Assembly (NCBI GenBank): GCA_951799425.1
Contig: OX637402.1
Location: forward strand, 1,240,501 to 1,304,500
From: Ilex aquifolium
Lineage: Eukaryota > Streptophyta > Magnoliopsida > Aquifoliales > Aquifoliaceae
Reading direction: 5' to 3'
Length of the DNA: 64,000 nucleotides
Shown: positions 33,432 through 61,407 of the stretch, piece after piece
Layout: each line of letters begins with the position of its first letter
Position numbering within the stretch: the stretch's first letter is position 1
The notes under the pieces: generated by a model
Told to the model about the DNA's origin: nothing
The model's database searches: none
What the model saw: only the letters and a program-made list of their open reading frames with translations
Translations under genes and position numbers: made by a program

Positions 33432-34319
33432 CCAGCCCATTTATCATAGACATTTCTAGGTAAGAAATCAACCCAAGTAGGAGAACCCCTACCTCTTGTA
33501 GCGTGAGAATCCCGTAGGAAGCTCCCAAGACCCGAAAACCCAACTCGAAGCTTGATTTTTCCAAATCCCGATTTTTCACCTTCGGTGAAAATCTTCATTT
33601 TTGGTACCCACGCGTAGCCCTCGTCGACGTGATCACTTCTCCCTTCTAGCTCGACGGAATCCGAGCAAAGAAATACAACTCGAATCTTGATTTTCGTACA
33701 CCCCCACCCGTTCACCTTCGGTGAAACTTGTTGTTTTTGGTACCCACGCGTAGCCCTCGTCGCGTAGATGAATTTTGCCTTTTGAATCGACGAATTCCGA
33801 CGGACGGAACTCCCGGAATCGGAGCGGGAAGCTTGGAGATCAAAATTTTTCTTTCTCTTTTCTCCCCAACGTCCAGCACTGAAGACACACTGGTTTTGAG
33901 TGATTTTTTGGCTAAAAAATCAGATATTTGCCGATATTTATAGTCGCAAATGAGCGGTCCACATCGCACCGCATATTTTCGACTTTCGGGTCTGTTTTTC
34001 GTCCCGAAACGATTCATTAAGTCCAAATTAATTTTATTGGAACTTTAATCCAATTATAAGGAAATTTTATAAAATCCATTATTGGGGACCTTTAAAATTA
34101 CATTCGCCACGCAGTCGCCTCGAACGACGTGCAAAAATCCGACTATCTCGGAATTCGACGAAATTTCTATTGATTACTAGATTTCGCGTTGCGAATCCAA
34201 TGGCGCACTCCGTTTCCTCATCCGAGGTCTAGAACATGATTATTTCAAATACGCATAAGGGTGGAGAATTACCATTTTGCCCTTTTTCGGAAAAAGTTCA
34301 AATTTTCCCGGGTTTTACA
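32863..34319 (-). repeat. Second portion of the split 3' LTR
   Basis: Corresponds to about 37150-38490 of the partner LTR and ends GGGTTTTACA. Relative to that partner about 150 bp are missing at the break. The first 75 bp are scrambled: 'aattcacaactta' and 'catgttcaaattc' are repeated three times, and 'accatatttcttaaccatg' is out of place. A 12-bp deletion occurs near 34020. Confidence 0.85.
33364..33432. repeat. (AT)n microsatellite
   Basis: A long AT dinucleotide run inside the LTR; the partner LTR has only a short run at 37573-37590. The tyrosine-isoleucine ORFs predicted across it are artefacts. Confidence 0.95.
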
Positions 34320-35467
34320 TTCTTCCCCCCTTTAAAAATAATTTCGTCCCCGAAATTCACACACCCACGTGCACATTCAACCATATGCATATGTCACAAC
34401 AATACAGTCTAAACTGTCCCACATGTATCCGTCTCTCTCCCGGACTAGGTTCTAAACTCAACCAAGTTCGTTCGTAAAGGCACCACATATCCCGTGTACC
34501 TCTGTCCCATTTCCGGGACTACTAGAATACGAGGTAAAGTAAGCTTCTTTGTAATTTGACAATAGTACCGAAACATCCCAAGGCGAGGCATTCGGTAGTG
34601 AAGTTCTTATTCAACCTAGAGTTCTCACAATTCTACCAGTGTCATTCTATGAGGAGCCATAGAGTAGACAACATACCGGGGTGTAACTCGACACTGAAGT
34701 CTACATCCCTACGTGGAGGCAAACATTCGTAAGCTCATAAACATCTGAGGTGGGCCAAATTCCTGTCTCACCTCGTTCCCTAGGGTAAAGCTTGCTAGCT
34801 AACCCATGAACTGTCCGTACCAACGGAATTCATACTTTATTTGAGGTAAAACGTCATGCGTTTCTCCTAAAACTTAAAACATACACACTCCGAGGTGTAA
34901 ACAGTGACCCGCTGACGATCACAATCACTGACGACTCAGTGTGTCGTCAATCCGTTCATCCCAAGGATGACATCAAATTCTAACATGTCCGTGGAGTAGA
35001 ATCCCCAAGAATCCTAGCTCACATTCCCGACATACCCATTTAGTACTCACCCTAGCTCCTAGGGGAGAACTCACCCACAATGGCTCTTCCAAGGTTTCAA
35101 CCTCTAAGCCCAATTCCTTTATGCAATTTAAATTGTCATAAAACAATAACTAGTATCCCAATGTAGGGACTCAGTTCAAAACATTGTGAATTTTCTCACC
35201 GTCTACCTAGTAGAGCAAGTGTCTCACACTAGTACACATTTAACCCATGAACTATCCCGTTCATCCCTTTTCGAACCTCCAAGATTATGTTTTCTAACCC
35301 TAGTGTTCTTCTTTTTCCATATACATTTTACCATGTATACAATTTACACATAACACATAATCATGTAACAAATAAAACACATAACATGAATGCACATGGA
35401 ATGCAATGGTGTAAACCCATTTCCCTCAAGCCCTAGGTAATCGTATACCTATGCTCTGATACCAAGC
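34320..35467 (-). pseudogene. Internal region of the minus-strand non-autonomous element
   Basis: Starts (right) with the reverse-complement iMet PBS at 35453-35464 and ends (left) with the polypurine complement TTCTTCCCCC. Between them it contains the same pol remnant and the same RT deletion junction as the array internals, but more diverged. No ORF of significance. Confidence 0.82.
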
Positions 35468-38400
35468 TGTGACACCCCAAAATCCGGGGGTCCCTTGATT
35501 ACCCATCAACCCGCAGAATACCTGTAGATACCTAGTATCTCGATATCACACTGTTATGCCCCATTTACCGGGGTCCATAACTTAACGAAATTTGGGCAGA
35601 GTCTCCTTTGTATGGGGAGCTCTACCCAATACCCAACCTGTGCAATACACAATTACCAGACCCATCCGAGGTCAAATATAAAGCAATGGCCGCACCGGGT
35701 CCATGTATAAGTAAACATTGGCCACACTGGGTCCAATTAACCATACTTAAATCAAAACATGAAAGGCTAATCTAACAATAGTCTTTATAAGTTCTATTAC
35801 AATTATTTTACGCATTACATGCCCCAAAATATAGTTTCTAACATGTAATTACACAAAACATTAAGTAAAGCCACATGCGGCTTTCTTCAAGCATGAGGGT
35901 CCAAAATGGAGCCATCCGCCGGTGTATCTCTCCCATCTGAAATGTGTTTCCGTATAGGGTGAGCCAATGCCCAGTAGAGTATTTCCTACAGAGGCTACTC
36001 CTCAACCTATATGCATATGAAATGTTCACACGCAACATCCATAAATCCGTAACCATTCCATCAAATAATATACAATTAAATGATGTAATGCTATAATGTC
36101 ATGCCATGAATGAGGTGAGACCCACCCATGTGCACTCAACCCGAGTCCACTCTGACTCCCTTTACATGTCAATGCCATGTATGTTAAACCGGGCTACCTA
36201 AGCCCCATGAAATGAGATGAGACTCATGTACTCAACCCGAGCCCTCCCTGGCTCCTCAACACAATGCTAATGCCAATGTGTTTGATGTATCATGAAATGA
36301 GATGTGACTCATTTATGCACTCACCCCGAGCCTTTCCCGGCTCGACAACACAATGTAATGTCAATGTGTATAACATGCCATGAGTGAGATGAGACTCAAT
36401 CATATAACACAACCCGAGCCCTCCCGGCTCCCACACACACAATGAGATGTCAGTGTGTTGTAAATCCGCCATTGATGTTATACATTCAACGACCATTTAT
36501 AAATCAAAACTCTTGTGTCTTTGTTGGGCAACGGATTCTCGGAGTCACACCGCTGGTTCCGTACACCATGTCACTTTTCTGGAATTTCACCTCAGGGGAG
36601 TGACTGAACCAAGTGATTCCGGGTCTTTCGCTCGAGGAAGTCGCCATGCCCCTTCTTGCTATACCCAGACACAAGTTTTTACTTATGCAATGCAACCATG
36701 CGACTCAAAAAGGATCGTCGATCCACTTTTCTCCCGAGTCCACATATCAGGCACCAAATAAGGTGTTGATTTAACCATGCACCAACCACACATGCTTCCA
36801 CTCACGGCTAATATTCATGAATGGAGTTACCACTGACATGCTCTATATGCGATAATGCCAATGAGCAATTCCCGTAACCACATGCATTTAATACCACATA
36901 GATTGTGGTACAATCATCCATGCACAATCACACCCACACCCATGCTAACATCCCATGAATGTGATGCCTCACCATGTCCCATATGCAATGTATGCAACTT
37001 GGACTACTCCTCGCGTCAATCACCAAGCCTGGTGTCGACGTCAACCATGCACTCACCCATGAAATGAATGATTCCGTGCAAATGCAATGTGATGCACCAT
37101 TGCATATCCATGTCATGTCCCATATGGAGTGAATGTCATATGGAAAATTTAATTCACAACTTTACATGTTCAAATTCATGGCAATTATATCAATAACATA
37201 TAACTACCATATTTCTTAACCATGTCAATACATCAAAGAACATATATTGGCATATCATAGTGCATAAGTTCACGTACCTCAACACACTTAAACATGTTAT
37301 CTCAATTTCATCGAATAACAACATTTACATCAACCAAGACATTTAATCAAACACCTTCAAGGCAAACAACATGGTAACACATATTATGCCCAATTTTCAC
37401 GTAGCTTTCACATAATTCAAGAAATCCCAATAGGCAATTTCTACATACTCATTTAGGATAAAATCATTTTACCTAAATTCCACCAATGGACAAGTGAAAT
37501 TTTCTAACAAACTACCAATTTACCTCATTATTCCATAACCATATACATATAAATATATGTATACATAGGGCAATATATATATATATATATTCAGCCCATT
37601 TATCATAGACATTTCTAGGTAAGAAATCAACCCAAGTAGGAGAACTCCTACCTCTTGTAGCGTGAGAATCCCGTAGGAAGCTCCCAAGACCCGAAAACCC
37701 AACTCGAAGCTTGATTTTTCCAAATCCCGATTTTTCACCTTCGGTGAAAATCTTCATTTTTGGTACCCACGCGTAGCCCTCGTCGACGTGATCACTTCTC
37801 CCTTCTAGCTCGACGGAATCCGAGCAAAGAAATACAACTCGAATCTTGATTTTCGCACACCCCCACCCGATCACCTTCGGTGAAACTTGTTGTTTTTGGT
37901 ACCTACGTGTAGCCCTCGTCGCGTAGATGAACTTTGCCTTTTGAATCGACGAATTCCGACGGACGGAACTCCCGGAATCGGAGCGGGAAGCTTGGAGATC
38001 AAAATGTTTCTTTCTCTTTTCTCCCCAACGTCCAGCACTGAAGACACACTGGTTTTGAGTAATTTTTTGGCTAAAAAATCAGATATTTGCCGATATTTAT
38101 AGTCGCAAATGAGCGGTCCACATCGCACCGCATATTTTCGACTTTCGGGTCCGTTTTTCGTCCCGAAACGATTCATTAAGTCCCGGATTAAGTCCAAATT
38201 AATTTTATTGGAACTTTAATCCAATTATAAGGAAATTTTATAAAATCCATTATTGGGGACCTTTAAAATTACATTCGCCATGCAGTCGACTCGAACGACG
38301 TGCAAAAATCTGACTATCTCAGAATTCGATGAAATTTCTAGTGATTACTAGATTTCGCGTTGCGAATCCAATGGCGCACTCCGTTTCCTCATCCGAGGTC

Positions 38401-45450: not shown

Positions 45451-46551
45451 CTAATCCATACCAAGGATAACATCGAACTCCGACATGTCCTTGACCCTAA
45501 GGTCCATGATGAGTAGAATCCCTGAGATCTCTAACTCACAACCCCGATATATCTGATCAACGCTTACCCTAGCTCCTAGGGGAGAACTCACATGCAATGG
45601 CTCTTCCAAGGTTTCGACCTCTAAGCCCAAATCTTTCACACATGATGCAATAATAAAAGAATGAGATGTACCAGAGTCAAATAACACCCTTGCCCATAAG
45701 CGAGAAAGTAGAAATGTACCCTGGATAACCGACTGATCCGCTGGCTCAATCTGAGGTGTAATGGCGTAGACACGCCCCTCGGTCCCTGAAGTCCCGACTT
45801 GTGAACCTTGCCCTTGACCTCTACCCATGCTCTGGCCCATCTGGTCTGATTGCGGAATCCCCGCACGTGACGTAGTAGGGCCCTGTGCGGCACTCTGTAA
45901 CTGGTACTGGCTCCCCTGGCCCATGGTGGGGTAGGGAGGAATAAAATGAGTCTGTGAGTGTCCCACCGATGATTAGGACTGAGATGTCCCAAAGCTTTGG
46001 GATCCTTGCCTTAGAGGACAATCCCGCTTCATATGCCCAGGCTGGTGGCAATGATAGCAAGTTTTTTGGCCTGCCTGGTAGGAAGGCCTCTGATTTCTCC
46101 CACCTTGGGAGGATTTACCCTAGCCTTGGCCTTGATAGCTGTGGTCCTGTGGAGTCGAAGTCCTTTGCTTCTTCCCCGAACTCGACGAAAAAGATTGGCC
46201 CTCATTCTTCTTGTCTTTAGCACCCAACTCCCGGATGCTCCTTGTGTCATCCACTTCTCTCTCAATGGCCATAGATGCCTCGACCATCGAGTCCAAGTTT
46301 TGTAGGCAGAGGCCCACAATTTAACCCCGGATGGACAATTTCAAGCCATCCTGAAACTTACTCACCTTGGCCATGTCTGTGGCCACATAGTCGTCGGCGA
46401 AACGGGCTAACTCCGTGAACTTAGCCACGTATTCGAGCACCATCATAGTCCCATGCCTCAAGTCTAGGAACTCCCAAGCCTTAGCTTGTCGGACAGAAGC
46501 CGAAAAATATTTTCCCATGAAGAGCTCTCGGAACTCTCCCCATGTCGTTGT
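45451..46551 (-). pseudogene. Chromovirus Gag C-terminus, zinc knuckle and protease
   Basis: Gag resumes after the nested element with TTWGEFRELFMGKYF, LDLRHGTMMVLEYVAKFTEL and VSKFQDGLKLSIRG. An intact CCHC knuckle (CYHCHQPGHMKRDC) lies near 46015-46060 and the protease active site is DSGTSHSF. The protease end is FDVILGMD followed by TAG at 45451-45453, where tryptophan of 'GMDW' is expected. The knuckle and protease lie in different frames with stops between them, so no continuous polyprotein is possible. Confidence 0.82.
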
Positions 46552-47714
46552 TGCTTCAGCTTTAAAAGTGTAAACCCAAGCGTAGGTTGAGCGAAGTAGT
46601 ATATTCTCGGAAGCCCGAGGTCGAATCCACAGGGAATTGGAACAAGTCAACAATCACACAAACACTACTAAATTAAAATGGAGAAAATTTGTTTGAAGAG
46701 TTGTTGATTGAAAACAATTTAATTTAATAATTAAAACAGTAATAAAATTACTAGAGCATCAGGTACTCCCTCTCAATGTCATACGGTAATAATTAAAGAC
46801 TCAAGGCTTGATTTGAAACAGGAATTAAATGTCGGTTAAACCAGATAACAAATCAAGTAAGAAAACCAAAAGTTATAACCAAAAGATTATTCAGAAACCT
46901 GAATAATAAATCAATCATAATATTTTATGAAACAATGTTAACACTTCAAGCGTGGAATAACCAGTTATTTATTCGCAGGGAAACTCAAGCAATCGATGTA
47001 CATGGCACAACAACTTAGGAGTTTTTACAGAATAAAAACTTTGCTATAAGATTAGAAATTAGATTAACACAATATCATAAATCATTAAGTGCAAAGTCTA
47101 TAAAAATACCGTACTTCACTGAGAGGTTTTCCCTAGCCCTAGCTTAACCTTTTAGCCGGCCATAAAAGAATTGCAAAATACACTCAAGAATTCATGAGCA
47201 AAAAGATGAAAAAAGATCTCTATTACAAAGTCTTCAATTTGTATTTATAACCCCTTCCGAAAGAGATTGATTTTCGTCAGAATTCTAAGTCTGGCATCAG
47301 CAGATCCTTGACACGCGTCCGGACGCGTGTTCTTATTCCGTCCGGACGCAAGTTCCAGTAAATTTGTTCTTCTTCTGATCGCCTTTCTGCCACTCGCGTC
47401 CGGACGCGTGTTCATCTTCCGTCCGGACGCAAGTTCCAGTAAATTTGTTCTTCTTCTGATCGCCTTTCTGCCACTCGCGTCCGGACGCGTGTTCATCTTC
47501 CGTCCGGACGCGTGATCCAGTGTGTTTTCCTTTGAGCTATGCTTCGTCTTCCCATAATTTAACTCCAAAATTACGCTTTTGTCCTGTAAATTAACACAAA
47601 TCAACATTTGATAGCATAACACCCAAACTTGGGTAAACTTTTATATTTATCACACTTTTACAATTAAATAATCAATCTTTCATAATAATAAATGTGATTT
47701 TTCGGCCTTAATCA
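46552..47714 (-). repeat. Athila-type 3' LTR (1163 bp)
   Basis: TGATTAAGG at 47714 (start) to GAAGCA at 46552 (end), preceded on the minus strand by the purine run TGAGGGGGTG. TATAAATA sits at 47242-47249 (minus). It is 81 bp longer than the 5' LTR because of one extra unit of the palindrome repeat. Confidence 0.9.
47317..47509 (-). promoter_or_regulatory. Paired GTCCGGAC palindromes upstream of the LTR TATA box
   Basis: GTCCGGAC starts at 47317, 47340, 47398, 47421, 47479 and 47502, spaced 23, 58, 23, 58 and 23 bp: three pairs in an 81-bp tandem unit. Outer bases extend several copies to the 12-bp palindrome GCGTCCGGACGC. On the minus strand the array lies 68 bp upstream of TATAAATA (47242-47249). 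A role as transcription-factor sites is inferred from position and symmetry. Confidence 0.75.
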
Positions 47715-48584
47715 CACCCCCTCACTTAGTTCTTGCTAGTCCCTAGTAAGACAACCACTGATTTTAAGAAACAAAACAAAGTAAAATAAGACAAAACCAC
47801 TTTCGTATGACTCACGATTGCATTTAGCATATGCAACAAGCCTTTAAACCCCTAGGTTTCCCCTAGTGGATGAGTATAGTCTCGTGAGGGTTTCCAGAGA
47901 TGGTACCCACAAACATCACCCTGTGATCAAACATCTGAATAAAAATTTTATAATATAAGTTGCTACCACAATATTAACATTCTAAGATGCTAATTTTTCA
48001 TAAGCATATGCAAAACAACATATAGAATTCTACGCTATATAAATGTATGCACTTATCATATTCTCAAATAAACTCGTGTGTAGTGTGAATTAGCTATACC
48101 AAGTCAATAATTTTAGTTGATAATCACCTCTACAACCATCAACCATTCGTCTCAATGCCAAATCTCAATAGATAATTCACTCATGAACAATTCTCTCAGA
48201 TTATAGTGACTATACACTCAAGTATCACATGTGAGTGGAGGATATTTAAATCAACACAAAATAGTGCTCACATGTTCCATTAAGAAGATCGTAGTCCAAA
48301 AGAAAAGGATTTGACAAAATCTCATGAAAGGACATCAACACACCATAAGTAAATAATCACCCTTCTCTTCCCTATTCACACAAGTCATGCATCAATCAAT
48401 ACACTCTTGAGATCAAATAGGTCTTTATTTAAGGTTGTAATGAGGCCTTGGGATTAGGATTTTGAAATGAAGGATATTCAGGAATTCAAAAGACTATCCC
48501 GAGAGAACATGTACATTACACAACCAAACTTCTTTCCATAATCTTTCACTCTTCATCCTTTAGAAGCACAATTTACATCACTTG

Positions 48585-48629
<45 letters not shown>

Positions 48630-49566
48630 AACACATGCTTGCTATTTTTTATTTTTTATTTTTTTTTTATCATTATTGTTTTTTAAGCAAGACATCTAAT
48701 GCAAATATTCACAAGTATGTACAACTCTTTTTTTTTTTTTTTTTTCTTAACCAACATCTCCCAAATTACATAAACACTAAAAGTTCAATCTCAGGATAAC
48801 CAAGGGTAAAAGATATTATTTTTTTCTCATTGGCCTGGTTATTATATGTTGGGTATAAGAAATAAAATTTTGCTTTAAAGGCTCAATCATGGCTTCTAGG
48901 GATAATAATATTCAAAGAACAAGGTTTAGGCTCAAATAATGACAAAGATGGCCTAAAATCATATCTCAAGAGCTTTTGATAACACACTTCTCATGCAAAT
49001 AATTCGAAGTCAAGCAATCATTCACAATATTGGTGTTAACCAAAACAAACATAATGAGACTATTGAAGGAGATTAGCTGAATACAAATATTTTTTATTGA
49101 GTAAATGTAAATAAGCCTCCAAGAAAGATTGGAACAAAACTCACTAGGGTTTTTATGCATCTCCACTATATGTTTCAAGTTCTCAAGGTAACATACCTAA
49201 CAAATTTTCAACTTGGTAAAGTCTAAAGTGCACAAATTGTGAGTTTTTATAAGAACATGATATGAAATACAAAAATATAGAATAAAGTTCTATGTAATGC
49301 TTAAACAACTACAAATTTAAAGCTAAGCAAATTATTTCTATACTGTGGTATCAACTTATTCATAACAATGTTATTTAGATACTTGATAACACACCAAACA
49401 AAATATGCATTTTATAATATTGAGAATTCAGGTACAATGCATATTCAAAAGATAAAAGAAATCAAGCCTAACAAAAACTACCCCAAAATAGGCCTTGATT
49501 TCACAGATATGGTAAAGAAAATAAAAGAAACAATTTTAAAAACACCAGGACCTAGAAGAAATCATC
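47715..49566 (-). other. Non-coding stretch between ORF3 and the 3' LTR
   Basis: About 1.85 kb, AT-rich, with (AT)n at 48588-48614 and long T tracts at 48615-48630 and 48730-48745. No domain-bearing ORF. Long untranslated 3' regions are usual for Athila elements. Confidence 0.6.
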
Positions 49567-50652
49567 CTAAGATGAAGGGCTTGCCTGATCCTGAGAACTC
49601 TGCCCTAGCCCCCTCATCTGCGCCCTCAACTCTCTCATCTCCTTCCTCATCTCTCTCTGCCCTCTCAACAGCTCAAACAAAATCTGCCTGTCAGTCCTGG
49701 GATCAGTGTCCTCATCCACTAGAACCTCAAAATCCTCATCAATATTGAGGAACTGATCCCAATCCTCCTCATCTGGTTCCACCCCTGGTGGTGGTGCTTG
49801 CTCACCCCCTAGACCCCTTTCTCCTGGAACTGGTCTGGCTACACTCTGACTTTTCAAAAGGGTGCCAGAGTTGAGTGCCACCACTTTCTTAGCTCGCTCC
49901 ATAGTGGCGTCGATTACCACTCCTGCCTGTTCGCACATCGCAGTGGCCAAACCAGCAAAAGGGAGAGATGGTTTTTTCGGATCGACGATGGCTCGTCTCA
50001 TCTTAGAAAAAATCAATGATGGGAGGTCAATGGACTTTCCGGTGCCCATAGCGTATAACAAGCGAGCTCGGTCCGGATAGATGTGGTTATTTCTCAGTAG
50101 AGGAAGGATGTTTGACACTGAGATTAAGTTCAGTATTTTATACTTACTGGTCAGATCCCCTTGCTGAAGATATTTGAGGTTGTCTGTCCAAATAAAATCA
50201 CCATCCTCCAGTAACTCTCGTCCGACCTCATTCCCAGGATAAGCCTGGGGGTAATCCGGGTTGGCCACCCGAGCCTGCGTCATCCCAATCAGCCTGGCAA
50301 TAGCCACAACATCCACCCTAATCTCTATGCCCCGAACATAGGTGTGGATTTGGCCATTTCCAAGATCGTCTGCATTGCTAAAAAATTCTCTCGCTAAGAT
50401 AGGGATACACAACCACTCTTTTCCCATGAAACCTGCCCATCGCCTTGAAGTGACAATGTCTCGGACTCCCAACCGGACGAAGTCCTCATATTCTATTTTT
50501 CTCTCACAGACTACAGGCTTATGAGCGTAGTATTTAAAAAATCTTACCCGCGCCTCCAAGGTTTGGAAACGAATGGGGTCAAAGGTGGTATCCTCCTCCT
50601 CCTGAGTATTTACTCGGGGTCTCTTTGAAGTGGACGCTCGAGGTGGTGCCAT
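49567..50652 (-). CDS. Athila-type ORF3 (position of env-like gene; plant transposon-protein domain)
   Basis: An uninterrupted 361-residue ORF starting MAPPRASTSKRPRVNTQEEE. The N-terminus is basic and nuclear-signal-like (KRPRV). Then come F-Y-H-P-V-ER(K)-like residues, GWxGF-like RRWAGFMGKEWL, PILAREFFSNA, HTYVRGIEI and a helix-rich middle with ARLLYAMGTGKSIDL. The C-terminus is acidic, then charged and coiled (RGQREMRKEMREL). The 'REFFSN...VRG' segment resembles the plant retroelement domain often labelled Transposase_32. It lies between integrase and 3' LTR, the env-like position, but no signal peptide or membrane span is visible, so it is unlikely to be a fusion protein. Function unknown. 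Confidence 0.75.
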   Translation of the reverse strand: MAPPRASTSKRPRVNTQEEEDTTFDPIRFQTLEARVRFFKYYAHKPVVCERKIEYEDFVRLGVRDIVTSRRWAGFMGKEWLCIPILAREFFSNADDLGNGQIHTYVRGIEIRVDVVAIARLIGMTQARVANPDYPQAYPGNEVGRELLEDGDFIWTDNLKYLQQGDLTSKYKILNLISVSNILPLLRNNHIYPDRARLLYAMGTGKSIDLPSLIFSKMRRAIVDPKKPSLPFAGLATAMCEQAGVVIDATMERAKKVVALNSGTLLKSQSVARPVPGERGLGGEQAPPPGVEPDEEDWDQFLNIDEDFEVLVDEDTDPRTDRQILFELLRGQREMRKEMRELRAQMRGLGQSSQDQASPSS

Positions 50653-50749
50653 AGTGAAAATTGTGAAGAAGAGAGAAAGGATTTAAAGTGAAGAGTTGTA
50701 TTCTGGTTTTGGAAGTTTGCAATGCAAGAAATTCTAACCGGACAGTCGG

Positions 50750-51020
50750 TATTTATAATTTTTTCACACGCGTCCGGACGCATGGGGTTATACCGTCCGG
50801 ACACGCCTCAACTGCCGCCTTAATTAGCCTTAAAAGTCACGCGTCCGGACGCATGGGGTTAACCCGTCCGAACGCGTACTATGAATTTCAAACGGTTGGC
50901 TTTCCCGTCCGGACGCATGACAAATCACCGTCCGGACGCATTTTCCAGTGAGTTCAGACTCGTTGGTTCCGTCCGGACGCGACTTCCAGTAGGTTGTGCT
51001 CTCTATTCTGGCGTCCGGAC
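50750..51020 (-). promoter_or_regulatory. Internal promoter candidate for ORF3: TATA box plus GTCCGGAC array
   Basis: On the minus strand TATAAATA at 50750-50757 lies 98 bp before the ORF3 ATG (50650-50652). Upstream are eight GTCCGGAC sites starting at 50772, 50795, 50843, 50866 (one mismatch), 50907, 50930, 50971 and 51013. Three pairs (50772/50795, 50843/50866, 50907/50930) are exactly 23 bp apart, the same spacing as in the LTR array. The intervening bases differ. Several sites are followed by TTCCAGT. This copies the LTR promoter design. Confidence 0.7.
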
Positions 51021-51429
51021 GCGTGTTCCAGTGAGTTGTTTTTTCTACACTTAGAAAATTTTTTATATTTTCACATTTTTTTTTTTTTACTCTTTCCTCC
51101 CAAATGACTCCATTCTACTCATAAAAATTCCTAAGTCCCTAAAAAAAAAACTACATGACTATACTAAAAACAAAACAATAAACACAGTTGCATGTGCACA
51201 AAGCTCAAAATTCAAAATCCCGTATGCTTTTTATCAAAGTGAATGCTCCACCCCCCCACTCAAAAATCTACATTGTCCTCAATGTACGAATACCTAAAGT
51301 AAGATCAAATAAAGGATAGGAAGAACATATCGGATGCGCTTAAACTGTGCTCATGCATCTGTAGAAAATTAAAGAAAAAAAAAAAATACACTAATATACA
51401 ACAATATAAATCAAATGGTGAGAGAAAGA
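51021..51429 (-). other. Spacer between integrase and the ORF3 control region
   Basis: AT-rich with T and A tracts; no ORF or motif beyond the end of the palindrome array. Confidence 0.5.
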
Positions 51430-52824
51430 TTATTCATAGTGGGGATCCATCAATTCGATGGATTCCACTTCTACAATACCTTCCTCCAAGAATGGTTTCA
51501 GTCGTTGTCCATTAACTTTAAAGGTGTTCCCATTTTTTGGGTTCTCAATCTCTATCGTTCCATAGGGGAATACCTCCTTAACAATGTATGGACCACACCA
51601 TCTGGTTCGAAGCTTTCCTTTGAATATGTGAAGCCTAGAATTATATAGCAGAACTTTTTGTGCCGGTGTGAACGTTTTTCGCACAATATTCTTATCATGG
51701 AACACCTTCATTCGTTCCTTACTAATCCTAGAATTCTCATAGGCTTCATTCCTAATCTCCTCAAGCTCATTTAATTGTAATTTTCGTAAGGCACCAGCTT
51801 TGTCAAAACTAAAATTGAACATCTTAATGGCCCAGTATGCTTTATGCTCTAGTTCCACAGGTAAGTGACAAGCCTTTCCATAAACCAATCTGTACGGAGA
51901 CATGCCAATCGGGGTTTTGTATGCAGTTCGGTATGCCCATAACGCATCGATTAATCGTAACGACCAATCTTTATGATCTGGGTTCACCGTTTTTTCCAAA
52001 ATGTAAGAAATTTCCCGATTGGCAAGCTCTGCTTGACCACTTGTCTTAGGGTGATAAGGAGTTGCAACTTTGTGTGTGACACCGTATTTTTTCATTAAAT
52101 TCTCAAAAGGTCTATTACAAAAGTGCAATCCCCCATCACTGATAATGACTCGAGGTATACCAAATCTGGACAAAATGTTTTCTTTTAAAAATTTCAAAAC
52201 AACTTTATGATCATTTGTCCGACATGGTATAGCTTCGACCCACTTAGAAACATAGTCTACTCCCACTAAAATGTACATATATCCAAAAGATGGGGGAAAA
52301 GGTCCCATGAAATCTATGCTCCAACAGTCAAAAATTTCTATTATCAAAATTGGATTTAGAGGCATCATATTTCTACGGGTTAATCCCCCCAGTTTTTGAC
52401 ATCGCTCACATACCTTACAGAAATTATATGCATCCTTAAAAATTGTCGGCCAATAGAACCCGCATTGCAAAACTTTTGCCGCGGTTTTTTCCATAGAAAA
52501 GTGGCCTCCACATGCTCCCGAATGACAAAATGATAGAATGCTACTTACCTCATCATCGGGCACACATCTCCGGATAATTTGATCTGAGCAATACTTGAAA
52601 AGGTATGGGTCATCCCAGAAAAAACTTTTCACTTCAGTTAAGAACTTCCTTCTATCCATTGTAGTCCAAGCTGGTGGCATGTTACCTGTAACAAGAAAAT
52701 TCACTATATCAGCAAACCAAGGTACTGCAGAAACTGCCAGCAATTGTTCATCAGGAAAAGTGTCCTTGATCGGCACTGTCTCAATGGGTATGTCACTCAC
52801 AAGTCTAGACAAATGGTCAGCCAC
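51430..52824 (-). CDS. Athila-type integrase segment of pol (open, 464 codons)
   Basis: Starts after a frameshift with [10 protein letters not shown] (end of RNase H). Integrase shows the HHCC zinc domain ([15 protein letters not shown]...C-x2-C in [11 protein letters not shown]), the core with [11 protein letters not shown] (Asp), [15 protein letters not shown] (Asp) and [12 protein letters not shown] (Glu), and the C-terminal [20 protein letters not shown]. All catalytic residues are present. The upstream frame change is a single extra A in an A7 run near 52840, so the segment is no longer joined to RT-RH. Confidence 0.85.
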
Positions 52825-53257
52825 TACATTCTCTACCCCTTTTTTTATCTTTAATAGTTATATCAAATTCTTGGAGTAGGAGGATCCACCTAAGCAGTCT
52901 TGGTTTGACATCTTTCTTTGTAAGTAAATATTTAAGAGCCGCATGGTCTGTGAAAATAACAATGGGGAATCCCACTAAATATGACCTAAATTTGTCCAGT
53001 GCAAATACTACTGCCAGTAATTCCTTTTCTGTGGTAGAATAATTCATTTGTGCACTATTTAAAGTTCGACTAGCATAGTAGATGACATGTGGCTTTTTCT
53101 CATTCCTTTGCCCTAAAACTGCCCCTACGGCATAGTCACTGGCATCACACATAATTTCAAAAGGAAGACACCAATTCAGGGGTTGCATAATTGGAGCAGT
53201 GACGAGCATGCCCTTTAACTTATCAAAAGCCTCTTGGCATAACCCATCCCACTCAAA
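52817..53257 (-). pseudogene. Athila-type RNase H, interrupted upstream by a TIR element
   Basis: Encodes [60 protein letters not shown] and [14 protein letters not shown], the standard gypsy RNase H series. The 5' side is cut by the TIR element at 53258; the 3' side shifts frame at the A7 run. Confidence 0.85.
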
Positions 53258-54201
53258 GGGTCCGTTTGTTTAACAAGATAATGCTAGAAAATGCAAGAAA
53301 GAGAAAATTTTAAAATTTTACATGTGTTTGTTTAGCATGAAATAGAAAATGATAGAAAAAATAATTTTCTTCCATGCATAGATTTTCTCACATCTAACTA
53401 ACTTTTTTTTCTTGCAAAAAACACAAGAAAAAGCAAGAAAGTTGTGTTCAATAACCTAACTTCCCATTTTACCCTTATTTTTCTTAAAATATTCAATTAG
53501 TTATTAATTTTAAAAAAATTTGTACAAATTAGGCTAACCATATAATTTGGTCTAGAGATCAGGATTCGAGTCGATTCTTGTCCTTGATTTAGGTTAGAAG
53601 CCAATTTTTAAAAAATTTGAATAATAAAAAATATTTTTTTTCTTCTTTAAACCGAGTTAAAATAATTAAGGATAATTTAGACAATTAGAAAAAATTTCTT
53701 CTAATTTTCTTTTCTTTCAAACAATGTAATGAAATTGTTTTAAAATTTCTTAAAAGTTTTTTATGCTAACCAAATGCATACATGAAAATATATTTTCTTT
53801 CATTTTCTTTTCTTACATGAAAATATATAAATCTATTTTTTTAACAAATAATTTTAACTTGAAAAAAAATAAAGGATCATAAATTAATTTACAATGCAAA
53901 ATAATTTATGTGAAAGCAACAGAGAGAAAATTTATTGTCAATTTCTTGTTCTGTAGTCATATGGGTAGAGCCATTTTTGAATAATTATACATAAGGGTAA
54001 TTTAGACATTCAAAAAAATTTCTTGTAACTTTCTTGCTTTCCAAACTACAGAATGAAATTTTTTTAAAAATTTTCTTACAAAATTTTCATCCTAATCAAA
54101 CACAAACAAGAAAATATATATTTTTTCACTTTCTTTTCTTTCACTTCACTTTCTATCACTTTCACTTTCTATCATCTTTTTCTTTCTAACCAAACGGACC
54201 C
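53258..54201. mobile_element. TIR DNA element inside Athila-type pol
   Basis: Ends GGGTCCGTTTGTTTAAC (left) and CTAACCAAACGGACCC (right) are inverted repeats. Removing the element joins RT-RH sequence. The flanks are A-rich (CTCAAA before, AAAAGG after), suggesting an AAA duplication, so the superfamily cannot be fixed. The 944-bp interior is AT-rich with many 'agaaaatg / ctttct' subterminal variants and no transposase. Confidence 0.78.
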
Positions 54202-55212
54202 AAAAGGTATATCCTTCCCTAAGAGATTGCAAAGTGGTCTAGATATAGAGCTAAAATCTTTTATGAACCTTCGATAGAAACCAGCATGACCCAAAAAAGA
54301 TCTGACATCCTTAAGGGTTTTGGAAGAAGGAAAAATTAGCAATTAATTCTATCTTAGCTTTATCTACCTGGATTCCCTCAGATGAGACAATGTGACCAAG
54401 AACAATTCCCTTTTGAACCATAAAGTGGCATTTTTCCCAATTAAGCGCGAGGTTCTTTTCTTCACATCGAAGAAGCACTTTCTTTAAATTTGACAAGCAT
54501 TCATCAAAAGCATCACCAAAAATAGTAAAATCATCCATAAAAACTTCAAGAAAACGCTCTACCATGTCACTGAAAATACTTAGCATGCACCTTTGAAAGG
54601 TCGAGGGTGCATTGCAAAGTCCAAAAGGCATCTTGCGATATGCAAAAGTACCAAAAGGGCAAGTAAATGTGGTTTTCTTTTGGTCTTCTAAGGCAATTTC
54701 AATCTGATTATATTTTGAATAGCCATCTAGAAAACAGTAGTACAAATGCGATGCTACCCTTTCTAGAATTTGATCCATAAAGGGTAAAGGGAAATGATAT
54801 TTTCTAGTAACAGAATTTAATTTTCTGTAGTCTATGCACATTCTCCAACCAGTAACTGTCATAGTTGGCACAAGTTCATTATTTTCATTGGCAACTACAG
54901 TGACTCCAGATTTCTTAGGAACTACCTGTGTGGGGCTTACCCATTTGCTGTCTGCAATAGGGTAAATAATTCCTATGTCTAACAATTTCAGCACTTCCTT
55001 CTTTACAACTTCTTTCATATGTGGATTCAGTCGACGTTGCATTTCCCTAGATGTTTTAGCATTATCTTCCAAATAAATCTTGTGAGTGCAAACTAATGGA
55101 CTAATTCCTTTTATATCAGCTAAAGTCCAGCCAATTGCCTTTTTATGTTCTCTAAGAAGTTGTAATAACATACCTTCCTGTGCTGAATTCAATTGAGAAG
55201 AAATTATTACCG
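54202..55212 (-). pseudogene. Athila-type reverse transcriptase
   Basis: Resumes after the solo LTR with YPVIISSQLNSAQEGML. Contains WTLADIKGISPLVCTHKI, RRLNPHMKEVVKKEVLKLLD, WVSPTQVVPKKSG, RMCIDYRKLNSVTRKYHFPL and MPFGLCNAPSTFQRCM. The catalytic FMDDF is near 54527-54541. After IELIANF one extra base changes frame; the thumb continues as [19 protein letters not shown] toward the TIR insertion. Active-site residues are intact, but the frameshift and insertions disable the gene. Confidence 0.87.
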
Positions 55213-55217
55213 GATAA

Positions 55218-57451
55218 TGTAACACCCCGCATTTTCTTTTATATATGCATATAGATATATAGATATAGCAAATAATGGTTGTAAAGATGTGGATAGGGGT
55301 ATTGAAGTGTGTTTGAACTTTGTAAATTTGAAAAGTAAAGATTTAAAATGTTAATGAAAATCATAGTTGAAATTTAGTTTTAGTGAGTGAAAATATAAAA
55401 TGTTAGGTCCTATAACTTGTATTAGATAGGTTTGGTGCATAAATATGTGTTGGAGAGGTTTGTGATAGATTTGGTTAGTTTTGGAATGGATTGGAAATGG
55501 AAAACAAAAGAAATAGGCAAAACTGGGTAAATGGTACCGGTACTGAATGGTACCGGTACTGAGTACCGGTACCCCCGATTCCAGAAGGTTTCTTGTATCG
55601 GTACTGGGTACCGGTACTGAGTACCGGTACTACCGAAACCAGACTGTTTATTTTAAGTCGCGAACAAGCCGATTTTTCCTCCACTATAAATACATTTTGT
55701 CACCTCCTTAGCCTTCATTACACCACTCCAAACCCTAGGCACCTTTAGAGAGAAAGGGAGGGAGAGAAGAACATCAAAGATAAGGAGAGATACACCATTT
55801 TAGAAGATTAAAACCCTAGATTTCTAAGATTTCACTTCTTTACTCATTCTCTTTTCTTCCATTCTTCACCCACTCTCATCCAAATCTTTTGAAAACCTAG
55901 GGAGAGGAGATTAAAAGGAAAAGAAAGGAAAGCAAGAAGGTCTTGAAGCTTGGGTATTTGGCTAAAACTCTTGAGCATTGAGGTAGGGGATTTCTTCCTA
56001 ATCTCTTACATTGAGGCTAGGGTTATCATATATGTATGTTTTCCATATTCTTGATAGTTATATGATAAATAGTTAAGAATTCTTGGTTCCTTGTTTATTG
56101 AAACATGATTTTGAACAAAATGTATGTTTGGGTTCAAGAGACCTTGTTCTTGAATTTCCAAAATAGTAGTTTTAGAAATTACCTATTTGGGTTATGCAAA
56201 ATACATGGATTATTGATTTCTAAATGCCTATAGTTGATTAAATCATGTTTTCATCAAATCCTTGTTCTAGTTCCAAGAAATTATGTTTTGTTTGGAAAAC
56301 TCTAGAATTTTGATATCTTTAGTGTTTGATATTGTACACCAAAAATGTTACTTATGATGATCTCTTGCTCATTTTCTTCCATCATATTATGAAACATTAT
56401 ATTAGAAATTGTGGAATTTGGTAATCCCTTGAAATGTTGATGAATTGAGAATATTTTGGTTTCCTCAATTGTATGGTTGTTGTGAGGGACTTGGATTGCC
56501 TTCGAGAGATGCCGTAGAGTGTTAGAGGTTAGTCTACCCTAGTGGGGGTGAGATGGTTTCCTAGCACTTGTAGTGGGTTGTCATTTGGTAATGAAACCAC
56601 TATCGTTCACTGGAGTTCGAACAAGGGATATTATACTTTTCCTGGGAAGGGACTCGTCACTGCCATTGGGATGGTAGACGCCCTTTCCTAAAATGCTTGT
56701 GAATGTGATTGTGATTGGTGGACTAGGTATAATCGTTGGGTAGATTCATGAGAAACAATCAACATACATGGTACGGGGATGAACCAATATACATGGGATG
56801 ATGAGTTGGAACGTCTTGGCCGGTGCATTGGTATGGAACAATGCATCGGAAGACGCCCTTCCGAATTGGCCTAACTTTGGACACGGTGTATTGTTGTTCA
56901 ATTTAATTGATTCTTTTACTTGATTGTTGTATGGCTTAAACTTGAGATCTCTTTAAACTGTCCTGTTTTTCCTTCAAAAATTGATATATATTATTTTCGA
57001 AATGTGACCCACCCGTTTTATATTTTTATAAACCTTGTTTGAGTTGGGAAGATTTTGCTACAGAGCTTCGTGCTCATCCCCTACAAATTACATTTTTCAG
57101 ATTTGGTGCTAGAGGAGGATCTCGGCATCGACGGGTCAGGGCATTGGGAGGCTCCACTCGAGGGGAACCTAGATCCCGAGGTGGATATGTAGAGATGTAG
57201 CTTCTTTTGTACTAGACTAGGTTATTCTTTTGGACACTGTAAGGTCTAGTTTCTTTTGCTATTCCGCTGTGCTACTTCAATTAATTTTTGAGATGTAAAT
57301 GCCATGGTTGGGCATATTCTTTTGGATAATGATGTAAATATTTTATGGATGATGAATGAAGTTTAATTTATTTATGGATGATATTAGTGCTCTCATGACA
57401 TAAATGGTTTTAGTATGTAATGCCGTCCAGGGTGTGTTTTGGGGTGTTACA
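55218..57451 (+). mobile_element. Solo LTR inserted between PR and RT
   Basis: Starts TGTAACACCCCGC and ends GGGGTGTTACA. Perfect GATAA duplications at 55213-55217 and 57452-57456. TATAAATA at 55684-55691 sets the plus orientation. At 2234 bp without internal region, PBS or PPT it is a solo LTR, of a family different from the chromovirus LTRs. Its removal restores the reading DDATYPVIISSQ between PR and RT. Confidence 0.9.
55534..55630 (+). repeat. GTACCGGTAC palindrome cluster before the solo-LTR TATA box
   Basis: Copies start at 55534, 55550, 55563, 55595 (GTATCGGTAC, one mismatch), 55608 and 55621, with spacings 16, 13, 32, 13 and 13 bp. 'ttccagaagg' separates the two triplets. The last copy ends 53 bp before TATAAATA. 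The core is identical to that at 24616-24725. Confidence 0.85.
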
Positions 57452-57456
57452 GATAA

Positions 57457-58709
57457 GTTGCATCATCTCCCAGAAATGCATACTTTAACTCAACCGGTAG
57501 CTGCTTGAGGTCAAGCTTAGGTGCTTTCTCACTGGATGGGATTGGTGGGTCAATTCTTGGTGGAAGCTCCTCAAATTTCTGTCTGAACTCTTTCATTTCA
57601 AGTACCTGTAAAGAGTTTAACACATCAGTGGAAACAGAAATTTCAGAATTGAGTTCATCTATCTCTATCATAGAAGATTGTTCAAGCAAGCATGCTTCAA
57701 GTGGATCAAATAGAGAAGAATCATATAATCTGCTTGGAACAAGAGACTCAATCATGTTAACCTCATGCACATCTTCATCAACATTCCCTGGTTGTTTGCA
57801 CACATGAAAAATGTTGAGCTCTAATGTCATATTCCCAAAAGTTAATTTCATCACACCATTCCTACAATTAATTAAAGCATTTGAAGTTGCTAGGAATGGT
57901 CTGCCTAAAATAACAAGAATTTGAGCATTAGCATTTAATACAGGTTGAGTATCCAAAATTATGAAATCCACAGGAAAATAAAATTTGTCAACCTGTACTA
58001 AGACATCCTCCACCATACCCCTCGGTACTCTTATTGATCTGTCAGCTAATTGGAGTGTAACTGAAGTGGGTTTTAATTCACCTAACCCTAATTGTTCATA
58101 TACTGAATATGGGAGCAAGTTCACACTAGCTCCAAGATCCAGTAAAGCCTGTTCAATTCGGTGGTTGCCTATGACACAAGAAATGGTAGGACAACCTGGG
58201 TCTTTATACTTTGGTGGAGTATTATGCTGTATGATGGAGGATACCTGCTCAGTTAAAAATGCCTTCTTTTGCACATTCAATTTCCTTTTGACAGTGCATA
58301 ATTCTTTTAAAAACTTTGCATAAGAAGGTATTTGTTTAATGGCATCCAACAAGGGAATATTGATTTTTACCTGCTTAAAAATCTCTAACATATCATTATG
58401 CATATGAGGCTTAGTAGAAGTAAGCAATCTCTGCGGGAATGGTGCAGGATGAACATACTTCTCAGGCTCATTAACTTCAGAGGGATTAAGTTTATCATCA
58501 CTTTCCATAGGTTTTGAAATTTTCTCAAATTTTTGAGTTTGCGAAGGAATAGTTTTATCAATTTCTTTCCCACTACGGAGTGTGGTGATAGACTTAACCT
58601 GATCATGCTCAGTACTAGGAGTGCCAGTATCATTCACAAAAAAATTGACCCTATGGATTTGGTTGTGGTTGTGCTGGGAACTTACCCTTCTCCTGATGAC
58701 ACGGGTCAA
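57457..58709 (-). CDS. Athila-type protease segment
   Basis: An open segment overlapping the end of gag in another frame. It contains TTLRSGKEID, a conserved PFPQRL motif, EICKQVKINIPLLDAIKQIP-like sequence, YAKFLKELCT, then the retropepsin fold: GCPTISCVIGNH, active site LLDLGASVNLLPYSVY and VILGRPFLATSNALI. The DLGA form (Leu for Thr) is common in this lineage. The frame runs into the solo LTR at TYL. Cleaves Gag-Pol in the particle by family function. Confidence 0.85.
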
Positions 58710-60132
58710 TAGTCAGTTTAGTGATTGCACTCCTAATGTCATTTAAAGCCTGTGTGGTTTGATTGACTGTACCTCTGAGATCATCAATGGCCTGAGTAGT
58801 TTGCCTATTATAATTTGACTGACTCTGCATGAACTGTGTTAATGCTTCATCCATACTTCTCTTAGGAGGTGGGACATAAGGTGCAGCATTGGAAGAATTT
58901 TGTTGAGGTGGTTGTGATGCATTATTTTCATTCCTCCAACTAAAGTTGGGGTGATTTTTCCACCCCGGATTGTATGTATTTGAATAAGGATTATTGTAAG
59001 GTTTTGAAAAATTGTTTGCAGCATTTGCTTGATCATGCAAAACCTCTTTTAACACAGGCAATGTTGGACACTGTTTAACTGGGTGTCCGGGGGTGTCACA
59101 AAAACTACAGACTTCCTCAACAGGTATTGTGTCAACCTCATTAACCCTTTTATATTCCATAGCTTCTACCCTCCTAGCTAAGGTGGCAATCCTAGCCCCA
59201 ATGTCATCTTCCTCCTTCAACTGATACTTACCCCCACCAGATGATGATGATTGTGCAGTTTTACCTCTAGAGGGTTCCTGGGATGTAGTGTCCCAAGATT
59301 GTGCATTCTCGGCTAATTGGTCTAAATAGTCAAAAGCATCATCTGGTTCCTTATTCATAAAATCACCATTACACATCATCTCAATAAATTGACGCAGCTG
59401 TGGGCCTAAACCCTCATAAGAGAAACTTATTATGCGCCAACTTTCATAACCGTGATGTGGACAAGATGCAAGAAGGTCTTTAAATCTTTCCCAACTTTGA
59501 TAAAAATTTTCAGGCTCCTTTTGAGAAAAATTCATTATTTGTCTTTTCAAAAAGTTTGTGCGATGTGTGGGAAAAAATTTCTTTAAAAACTGTTTCTGCA
59601 TCTCTTGCCATGTTCCTATAGACCTAGATCTCAACGAATATAACCAAGTTTTAGCTTTCTCCTTTAATGAAAAAGGAAATAACTTCAGCTTGACTATATC
59701 CATTGCAACATTCTGGTCATGAAACGTAGCACATACATCCCTAAATTCTCTGATGTGCAAATATGGGTTTTCTTCACCTATACCCAGGAATTTTGGAAGT
59801 AATTGAATCATGCCAGGTTTGAAAACAAAATTAATGGCATTCAATGGAAAAATTATGCATGACGGTTCAGTGAGTAATACAGGTTGTAGATATTCACGCA
59901 AAGTCCTACCCTGATTAACATTCAAATTATCCACATCATTCTCATCATGATTGCTTACTCTATCAATATGGTCCTCATATGGGGGAAGTTCATTCTGCCT
60001 ATTAATGTTAGGATTAACAGCCATTGTGTGCACAGAAAAATTTAAATCAGACGAATCAAATAGATTTCCAAACAGAGTATCTAACTCCTCTCTTATTAAA
60101 CGTCCACTCAAATCACGATGCCAAGAGCTCAT
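58651..60132 (-). CDS. Athila-type Gag
   Basis: Starts at the ATG at 60130-60132 (MSSWHRDLSG); upstream in-frame codons lack an ATG. It contains TLREYLQPVLLTEPSC, GMIQLLPKFLGIGEENPYLH, LKLFPFSLKEKAKTWLYSL, TWQEMQKQFLKKFFP and NFYQSWERFKDLLASCPHHG (retrotransposon gag domain). A CCHC-like knuckle follows (CSFCDTPGHPVKQC), then NTYNPGWKNHPNFSWRN and a Gln/Asn-rich C-terminus ending PNP at 58651. About 494 residues. The frame to protease changes near the end. It is the best preserved gag in the window. Confidence 0.9.
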   Translation of the reverse strand: MSSWHRDLSGRLIREELDTLFGNLFDSSDLNFSVHTMAVNPNINRQNELPPYEDHIDRVSNHDENDVDNLNVNQGRTLREYLQPVLLTEPSCIIFPLNAINFVFKPGMIQLLPKFLGIGEENPYLHIREFRDVCATFHDQNVAMDIVKLKLFPFSLKEKAKTWLYSLRSRSIGTWQEMQKQFLKKFFPTHRTNFLKRQIMNFSQKEPENFYQSWERFKDLLASCPHHGYESWRIISFSYEGLGPQLRQFIEMMCNGDFMNKEPDDAFDYLDQLAENAQSWDTTSQEPSRGKTAQSSSSGGGKYQLKEEDDIGARIATLARRVEAMEYKRVNEVDTIPVEEVCSFCDTPGHPVKQCPTLPVLKEVLHDQANAANNFSKPYNNPYSNTYNPGWKNHPNFSWRNENNASQPPQQNSSNAAPYVPPPKRSMDEALTQFMQSQSNYNRQTTQAIDDLRGTVNQTTQALNDIRSAITKLTIDPCHQEKGKFPAQPQPNP

Positions 60133-60301
60133 AAAACAACTAAACAAAACAAATAAAATAGAAATCTAAATAAATAACGAAAAGTAAATAAATTGCCAGA
60201 AAATACAAATAAAAGAAATTGGAACGAAGTTACCGGTTCTCCGACGAATCGCAAATACCGAACACCTCGAAAGATGTGATGGCTCCTTGTTTTTTTTCAA
60301 T

Positions 60302-60319
60302 TCCCCGGCAACGGCGCAA
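60302..60319 (-). other. Primer-binding site, tRNA-Asp type
   Basis: Minus strand TTGCGCCGTTGCCGGGGA, complementary to the tRNA-Asp 3' end with one mismatch, six bases from the LTR edge at 60326. Confidence 0.8.
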
Positions 60320-60325
60320 AAAACT

Positions 60326-61407
60326 TGCTTCAACTTTAAAAGTGTAAACCCAAGCGTAGGTTGAGCGAAGTAATATATTCTCGGAAGCCCGAGGTCGAAT
60401 CCACAGGGAATTGGAACAAGTCAACAATCACACAAACACTACTAAATTAAAATGGAGAAAATTTGTTTGAAGAGTTGTTGATTGAAAACAATTTAATTTA
60501 ATAATTAAAACAGTAATAAAATTACTAGAGCATCAGGTACTCCCTCTCAATGTCATACGGTAATAATTAAAGACTCAAGGCTTGATTTGAAACAGGAATT
60601 AAATGTCGGTTAATCCAGATAACAAATCAAGTAAGAAAACCAAAAGTTATAACCAAAAGATTATTCAGAAACCTGAATAATAAATCAATCATAATATTTT
60701 ATGAAACAATGTTAACACTTCAAGCGTGGAATAACCAGTTATTTATTCGCAGGGAAACTCAAGCAATCGATGTACATGGCACAACAACTCAGGAGTTTTT
60801 ACAGAATAAAAACTTTGCTATAAGATTAGAAATTAGATTAACACAATATCATAAATCATTAAGTGCAAAGTCTATAAAAATACCGTACTTCACTGAGAGG
60901 TTTTCCCTAGCCCTAGCTTAACCTTTTAGCCGGCCATAAAAGAATTGCAAAATACACTCAAGAATTCGTGAGCAAAAAGATGAAAAAAGATCTCTATTAC
61001 AAAGTCTTCAATTTGTATTTATAACCCCTTCCGAAAGAGATTGATTTTCGTCAGAATTCTAAGTCTGACATCAGCAGATCCTTGACACGCGTCCGGACGC
61101 GTGTTCTTATTCCGTCCGGACGCAAGTTCCAGTAAGTTTGTTCTTCTTCTGATCGCCTTTCTGCCACTCGCGTCCGGACGCGTGTTCATCTTCCGTCCGG
61201 ACGCGTGATCCAGTGTGTTTTCCTTTGAGCTATGCTTCGTCTTCCCATAATTTAACTCCAAAATTACGCTTTTGTCCTGCAAATTAACACAAATCAACAT
61301 TTGATAGCATAACACCCAAACTTGGACAAACTTTTATATTTATCACACTTTTACAATTAAATAATCAATCTTTCATAATAATAAATGTGATTATTCGGCC
61401 TTAATCA
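60326..61407 (-). repeat. Athila-type 5' LTR (1082 bp)
   Basis: Same ends as the 3' LTR. TATAAATA (minus) is at 61016-61023. Four GTCCGGAC palindromes start at 61091, 61114, 61172 and 61195 (spacings 23, 58, 23), one 81-bp unit fewer than in the 3' LTR. Confidence 0.9.

Follow-up and report, generated by a model that had tools for sequence, protein, structure and literature searches.

LTR-type palindromes and a TATA box make up a probable ORF3 promoter in an Athila-type retrotransposon

How plant retroelements express their env-like and accessory genes is a long-standing question, and the published accounts propose splicing, stop-codon suppression or internal promoters for various elements. 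The closest described case is that of the Sireviruses. According to the sections of PMC2829016 that deal with it, numerous short CCG/CGG palindromes precede the LTR TATA box, and more stand upstream of the env-like gene; palindromes in the linker were described for nine env-bearing elements out of thirteen, 77 of the 79 linker copies being located upstream of env, and four env-less elements had no linker copies. The same sections state that the authors favoured an internal env promoter, although none was conclusively identified, so that the promoter for the env-like gene could not be pinned down. In maize, gene23 of Grande is reported to have its own promoter (Gomez-Orte 2013, as described in PMC7264820), and a maize palindrome, CACCGGACNNNGTCCGGTG, is described as common to Copia elements and Helitrons (PMC10760457). 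Among the titles listed in searches of the open-licence literature, none dealt with GTCCGGAC palindromes of plant retroelements or with a promoter for an Athila ORF3.

The element considered here lies in the window, by which we mean the whole 64-kb stretch of Ilex aquifolium DNA that was analysed, and consists of the following parts:

46551-61407, minus strand: whole element, in the order 5′ LTR, gag, protease, reverse transcriptase (RT), integrase, ORF3, 3′ LTR
60325..61407, minus strand: 5′ LTR, with two 23-bp palindrome pairs (61091/61114, 61172/61195) and TATAAATA at 61016-61023
58651..60147, minus strand: gag (PF03732)
57447..58709, minus strand: aspartic protease region (PF13650)
54311..55225, minus strand: RT (PF00078)
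51430..52824, minus strand: integrase, end of pol (PF17921, PF00665)
49567..50652, minus strand: ORF3, 361 aa, PF20167 (Transposase_32), E 2e-27
46551..47714, minus strand: 3′ LTR, with an 81-bp tandem repeat that contains three 23-bp palindrome pairs (47317-47509); TATAAATA at 47242-47249

The two LTRs are 98.9% identical across 890 bp and 97.5% identical across another 323, and a single 81-bp repeat makes the difference between the three pairs of the 3′ LTR and the two of the 5′ LTR. Gag, protease, an RT that precedes integrase and two LTRs are all present, as is a sense ORF3 of family PF20167 between pol and the 3′ LTR. Shortly past the LTR end stands GCGCCGTTGCCGGGG, a candidate tRNA-Asp primer site. 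A position about 5 bp past the LTR is given as the rule for the primer sites of Calypso and Diaspora (PMC1142308), and PF20167 is reported from the extra ORF of sunflower Athila (PMC11728184). Domain order, LTRs and ORF3 family together point to an Athila-type Ty3/gypsy element. An assignment to Ty1/copia (Sirevirus) was rejected, PF00078 and PF03732 being found and PF07727 and PF14223 not.

ORF3 is called env-like from its position only: a hydropathy scan found no 19-residue stretch with a mean hydropathy above 1.6 and so no candidate for a membrane span. The protein has a basic KRPR at residue 10 and a charged C terminus that might form a coiled coil. A search for relatives in a general protein database returned 5832 candidates with none at E 0.001, and two pattern matches in viral contigs yielded none that was confirmed. 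An AlphaFold2 model of ORF3 alone, with a mean pLDDT of 36, was discarded as unusable evidence of a DNA-binding fold. Elsewhere in the window, near-identical 4.1-kb tandem repeats occupy 22038-32862 (99.7% across 6.7 kb, at an offset of ~4100 bp), and inverted relatives of them are found at 34116-37383.

The palindrome GTCCGGAC occurs at 17 exact sites in the 64-kb window, against 0.30 expected under a first-order Markov model. All 17 are confined to three places, the two LTRs and the front of ORF3, with none elsewhere in the window:

47317, 47340, 47398, 47421, 47479, 47502: GTCCGGAC, 3′ LTR
61091, 61114, 61172, 61195: GTCCGGAC, 5′ LTR
50772, 50795, 50843, 50907, 50930, 50971, 51013: GTCCGGAC, ORF3 front, exact
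50866: imperfect site of the ORF3 front, GTCCGAAC, one mismatch
50772..51020, minus strand: ORF3-front cluster of eight sites, at intervals towards ORF3 of 42, 41, 23, 41, 23, 48, 23
51026-51032, 50984-50990, 50943-50949, minus strand: three ACTGGAA boxes, shortly before palindromes 1, 2 and 3
50750-50757, minus strand: TATAAATA (TATA box) of the ORF3 front, starting 14 bp past the last palindrome
50653..50729, minus strand: putative ORF3 leader, without ATG

These counts confirm the core of the original prediction, namely that the front of ORF3 carries LTR-type palindromes, a TATA box and the ATG. Some of its details need adjustment. Eight palindromes with three 23-bp pairs had been claimed; there are indeed eight sites, but only seven are exact, forming two exact pairs and a third with an imperfect partner. 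The TATA box is where it was expected, although at a gap of 14 rather than 15 bp, and the ORF3 ATG follows 98 bp beyond it, as stated. The 23-bp pairs described upstream of the LTR TATA boxes are likewise present, three in the 3′ LTR and two in the 5′ LTR. The idea that the LTR promoter design is duplicated at ORF3 holds for the sites, and the ACTGGAA boxes occur before LTR palindromes too, but the layouts are not identical: the last palindrome stands 67 bp from the TATA box in both window LTRs versus 14 bp at the ORF3 front, and across copies the distance is typically 65–68 bp in LTRs versus 13–14 bp at the ORF3 front. A scan for bacterial-type promoters, which is irrelevant to plant DNA, gave no promoter-like site. 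Genome-wide counts were made on the 800-Mb assembly, with the reversed pattern as control. They include 2109 GTCCGGAC pairs at exactly 23 bp among 3299 spaced 18–28 bp, the control giving 0 for both.

Fifteen stretches around listed palindrome pairs of one contig contained six loci with similarity to ORF3. The cluster was seen in five of them (L005, L008, L010, L012 and L014), with the intervals 42, 41, 23, 41, 23, 48, 23 kept wholly or mostly and one pair each at 24 bp in L005 and L010; in the sixth (L017) it would fall beyond the fetched stretch. The LTRs of these single-contig loci show the intervals 23, 58, 23 or part thereof. Two short elements (L011 and L016), whose LTRs start ~4.0–4.3 kb apart, have Athila-like LTR palindromes and an internal polypurine-like tract; no ORF3 is detectable in these two, and neither has an internal palindrome cluster. 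Genome-wide, the pattern GTCCGGACN{8,30}TATAAATA, which joins the last palindrome to the TATA box, matched at 303 places versus 3 in the control. Among the 100 matches listed of these 303, classed from the matched strings, 86 belong to this subfamily, 10 to a second subfamily and 4 to others, and the ORF3-front layout was found in 26 of the 30 loci fetched with this pattern. Four ORF3-front copies at C1:40562343-40731146 (L046-L049) have an identical matched string and follow one another in 50–60 kb steps, perhaps through segmental duplication.

So that copies would not be chosen by the feature under test, a further set was anchored on a polypurine tract (PPT) inside the element:

51249..51261, minus strand: internal polypurine-tract-like GAGTGGGGGGGTG, searched with a pattern of 32 places around the tract

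This pattern requires an exact match at 29 fixed bases and is therefore biased towards well-kept copies; it matched at 90 places genome-wide and at 0 in the control. Both lists are complete for C1-C3 and for C4 up to 33.7 Mb. This part of the assembly has 30 PPT places, 26 of which are followed downstream by the exact last palindrome and TATAAATA. Twenty of the other 60 places were fetched and constitute the PPT-anchored set. Before ORF3, every one of these 20 copies has between six and eight palindromes, none with more than one mismatch, and 15 have an exact TATAAATA in place; the start of ORF3 was not located in one copy (L075). The distance from the internal tract to the ORF3 cluster resembles that from the 3′ polypurine tract to the LTR palindromes, and the arrangement might be a fossil LTR.

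Both ways of sampling give the same picture of conservation. The pattern-found set comprises 20 non-redundant of 28 copies, 26 of the 28 having been found via the pattern that fixes only palindrome 8 and the TATA box; its mean pairwise identity is 0.967 in palindromes 1–7, 0.764 in the bases between them (p 8e-9) and 0.575 in the leader. For the PPT-anchored set, chosen neither by palindrome nor by TATA box (17 non-redundant rows from the 20 copies plus the window), the values are 0.949 for palindromes 1–8, 0.757 for the bases between, 0.903 for the TATA box and 0.523 for the leader (p 1e-8). Since 9% of the other 8-bp windows in this set are kept as well as the worst palindrome, other conserved boxes exist too. 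The LTR palindromes are 0.970 identical versus 0.743 between them, in 12 copies that were themselves found through palindromes.

Could this conservation be only apparent, and the cluster a neutral leftover of tandem duplication? The interval lengths and the shared CTGGA boxes do point to a tandem, LTR-related origin, and indel events per base are no rarer inside the pairs. The palindromes are, however, far better kept than both their flanks and the four-fold sites of ORF3 in the same copies: across the 11 copies with an open ORF3 (the window and 10 of 19 examined), identity is 0.626 at four-fold sites versus 0.979 in palindromes 1–7. This conservation holds despite the CpG content of the palindromes; of the 19 changes seen in them, all but one are C>T or G>A, the bias expected for decay of methylated cytosines after insertion. 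We therefore regard a neutral leftover as extremely unlikely. ORF3 itself is under purifying selection, with a median dN/dS of 0.10 and a range of 0.05–0.21 (55 pairs; median dS 1.07, near saturation), and we infer that palindromes and ORF3 protein were both maintained across many rounds of copying.

A transcript start between the TATA box and ORF3 would need a leader without ATG, and such a leader is found. From TATA+28 on, 20 of 20 copies contain 0 ATGs versus 6.7 expected in all (in L041, where the ORF3 ATG was not located, 70 nt were taken as the leader), and in the PPT-anchored set the count is 0 in all 15 scorable copies of 20. One copy (L037) has an ATG directly after the TATA box, ahead of the assumed transcript start. 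Alternatively, ORF3 could be translated from an RNA initiated in the 5′ LTR and spliced to an acceptor just past pol, with the palindromes serving some other function. The window has a suitable tract:

51359..51387, minus strand: 3′ splice-acceptor-like T-rich tract ending CTACAG, just past the pol stop

A T-rich tract ending CTACAG or TCACAG is conserved 530–650 bp before the TATA box in 17 of 20 copies, and in published accounts BAGY-2 is reported to be spliced, with acceptors predicted both there and in Athila (PMC7264820, PMC2829016). Yet the spliced RNA would place a ~700-nt leader with many ATGs before ORF3, the 340 bp upstream of the cluster alone having 4–12 per copy and 169 in all across 20 copies, and splicing leaves the palindromes, the TATA box and the ATG-free stretch unexplained. 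We consider this route doubtful as the sole one; an internal promoter and splicing may also operate side by side.

Compared with shuffled sequences, the cluster folds much better as RNA (z −6.0), which is what an array of palindromes should do, and PMC10760457 describes small RNAs as attracted by the palindromes of maize Sireviruses. Both points would fit pairs that act as RNA or DNA hairpins, whether as a source of small RNAs or as a pause for reverse transcription, instead of as protein sites. Against this, mutated pairs lack a compensating change in the partner in 11 of 11 cases (20 copies), sites 1 and 2 are kept as well as the paired sites although they lie outside the 23-bp pairs, and dyad symmetry is preserved within each single site, although a two-site hairpin would not require it. 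A hairpin function thus seems quite improbable to us.

Further evidence for a promoter comes from a second, distant subfamily, met at ten loci (L038-L040, L078-L084). In L038 and L040, where the upstream sequence is long enough for the comparison, the end of the integrase is 53–72% identical to that of the window, and ORF3 hits in nine of the ten loci are 28–49% identical to the window protein. Here ORF3 is preceded by a 20-bp pair and a TATATAAATA-type box. Both sites of the pair have at most one mismatch in seven of ten loci, and an ORF3-type ATG lies 219–224 bp past the TATA box in all ten, with an earlier ATG (at +16, +58 or later) in four. Because the inner palindrome and the TATA box served to find these loci, the independent evidence consists of the outer site and the gene behind it; the identity of the outer palindrome, 0.811, is hardly above the 0.783 of the leader.

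The families beyond Athila described next came to light as the pattern was followed and do not amount to a complete census. L015 (750-5648) and L018 (892-5792) are Ty1/copia elements with PF07727 and PF14223 in 1314-aa ORFs, and L024 (1093-5993) is Ty1/copia-like by LTR arrangement alone; with LTR identities of 99.3–100% within each element, we take all three to be young. Their LTRs contain two 23-bp pairs each, with a one-mismatch site in one of the six LTRs, and over a stretch of 135 columns L015 shares 78.5% identity with the window LTR, which suggests that the Ty1/copia cassette is homologous to that of the Athila LTR. Another Ty3 lineage, with RT 55–84% like the second RT of the window, has 22-bp pairs in LTR-like sequence (L020, 3771-3863; L023, 3273-3365), and a 22-bp palindrome pair of the same lineage was seen at L022:3267-3337. 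L025 (377-5430) is caulimovirid-like, with movement and coat protein domains, and has a 20-bp pair followed by TATATATA; L026 has a promoter of this type at 2989 and at 8700, and the one ORF checked there has no known domain. Outside the motifs, the similarity between the caulimovirid-like and the second-subfamily promoters (z 1.6–3.3) is too weak to support common descent.

These families bear on the possibility of a circuit like that of foamy viruses, in which the ORF3 protein would bind the palindromes and activate both its own promoter and the LTR. The sites at the LTR and at the ORF3 front are identical, the protein is selected, and its basic KRPR, possible coiled-coil C terminus and lack of a membrane-span candidate are compatible with such a role; Tas of foamy virus is described as binding both the LTR and the internal promoter (PMC4929722). 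The sites nevertheless recur in a Ty1/copia element and in the caulimovirid-like sequence, the tested ORFs of which contain no ORF3 domain (though both might be parasites of the factor), and no DNA-binding fold could be demonstrated, the model having a mean pLDDT of only 36. We judge the circuit to be distinctly unlikely. A host factor is our first guess, as the sites also occur in elements that yielded no ORF3.

The original prediction further held that selection had acted on spacing. As a whole it would have been refuted by other copies that lack the 23-bp spacing, but these copies keep it: of the 60 pair cells in the 20 PPT-anchored copies, 55 could be scored, with a spacing of 23 bp in 52 and of 24 bp in 3. 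In the same copies each linker has at least two lengths, and by our own count, which leaves out one cell (23 bp, sites 1–2) as an assignment error, 28 of 73 scorable cells differ from the commonest length, the variants clustering in a few groups of copies. Expressed as events, we estimate some 3–4 length changes in the 45 bp of pair spacers and about 6 in the 140 bp of linkers. The argument for selection on spacing rather than copying is consequently weak: per base, length changes were no less frequent in spacers than in linkers, and the modules share sequence outside the palindromes. The proposal that paired factors sit on nearly the same helix face is also loose, as 23 bp corresponds to 2.19 helical turns and other families have 20 or 22 bp. 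By family the spacing is 20, 22 or 23 bp, always near two turns, a regularity across families that is suggestive only. At 10.5 bp per turn the ORF3-front sites cluster in helical phase (R 0.76, p ~0.008; the sites look tandemly duplicated) and the LTR sites show no clustering (R 0.52, p 0.35), and neither result is used as evidence here.

Aligned on both palindromes, the ORF3-front and LTR modules are 0.348 identical outside the palindromes versus 0.264 when shuffled. For copia against LTR modules the values are 0.443 versus 0.260, and for copia against ORF3-front modules 0.390 versus 0.254. A CTGGA shortly before the first palindrome is mostly common to the LTR, copia and ORF3-front site 3–4 modules and is absent from the ORF3-front modules of sites 5–6 and 7–8, and GTGGCAGAA or a near form past the second palindrome is mostly common to the upstream modules of LTR and copia. 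This likeness outside the palindromes, including the CTGGA box, makes it likely that the LTR and ORF3 modules come from one module, and the cassette seems to have been passed around through descent or recombination.

Taken together, these results suggest, with a probability that we put at roughly 78%, that 50750-51020 is a dedicated sense-strand RNA polymerase II promoter for ORF3 which answers to the dimeric factor of the LTR. The observations behind this reading are the sites, their conservation and spacing, the ATG-free leader, the selected ORF3 and the second-subfamily version, and from them we infer promoter activity, start site and factor identity. The prediction of an ORF3 promoter of its own with LTR sites is accordingly supported by conservation, TATA box, leader and the second subfamily. 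In the proposed mechanism, the palindromes CGTCCGGACG, used singly and as pairs about two helical turns apart, would be bound by dimeric DNA-binding proteins, most probably a single host transcription factor. Once bound, the factor would bring RNA polymerase II to the TATA box at 50750, and the transcript would start ~30 bp past it, with the ORF3 ATG as its first ATG. One and the same factor would also drive the genomic RNA from the LTR, so that the two RNAs would come on at the same time. A copy of the module probably passed between the LTR and the ORF3 front, after which selection would have kept the palindromes while the rest diverged. A wider and more speculative view, which we think unlikely, is that Athila (LTR and ORF3), the young Ty1/copia elements, the other Ty3 lineage and the caulimovirid-like sequence form one CGTCCGGACG-pair regulon under one regulator; in its boldest form the Athila ORF3 protein would regulate in the manner of Tas and the others would parasitise it.

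With sites, TATA box, leader and gene all present and conserved, the question of how such a gene is expressed is open here to simple experiment. Palindromes in unrelated retroelements of one genome mean that one regulator may control all of them, and the CpG within the shared palindrome could make the switch methylation-sensitive.

Collectively, the arrangement resembles that of the Sireviruses in having palindrome clusters both upstream of the LTR TATA box and upstream of the gene in env position. Unlike the Sireviruses, which are Ty1/copia elements with CGG..CCG half-sites, the present element is Ty3/gypsy with a PF20167 ORF3, its half-sites overlap as CCGG, and it has pairs with fixed spacing as well as a TATA box and an ATG-free leader before ORF3. 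The accounts of maize CACCGGACNNNGTCCGGTG likewise describe one GTCCGG-type palindrome across unrelated transposon orders of a single genome, but there it was RNA structure that was studied, while here the palindromes stand beside the TATA boxes of Ty3, Ty1 and caulimovirid-like sequences. As described for foamy viruses, we propose a second promoter for an accessory gene with an activator common to the LTR; there the activator is Tas, whereas binding by ORF3 is only a candidate here. Grande gene23 offers a Ty3/gypsy accessory gene with its own promoter, located between pol and the 3′ LTR, but it is antisense to gag-pol whereas ORF3 is sense. Judged from its sequence, the present case would be the sense-strand Ty3/gypsy counterpart of these known systems, with a complete promoter layout.
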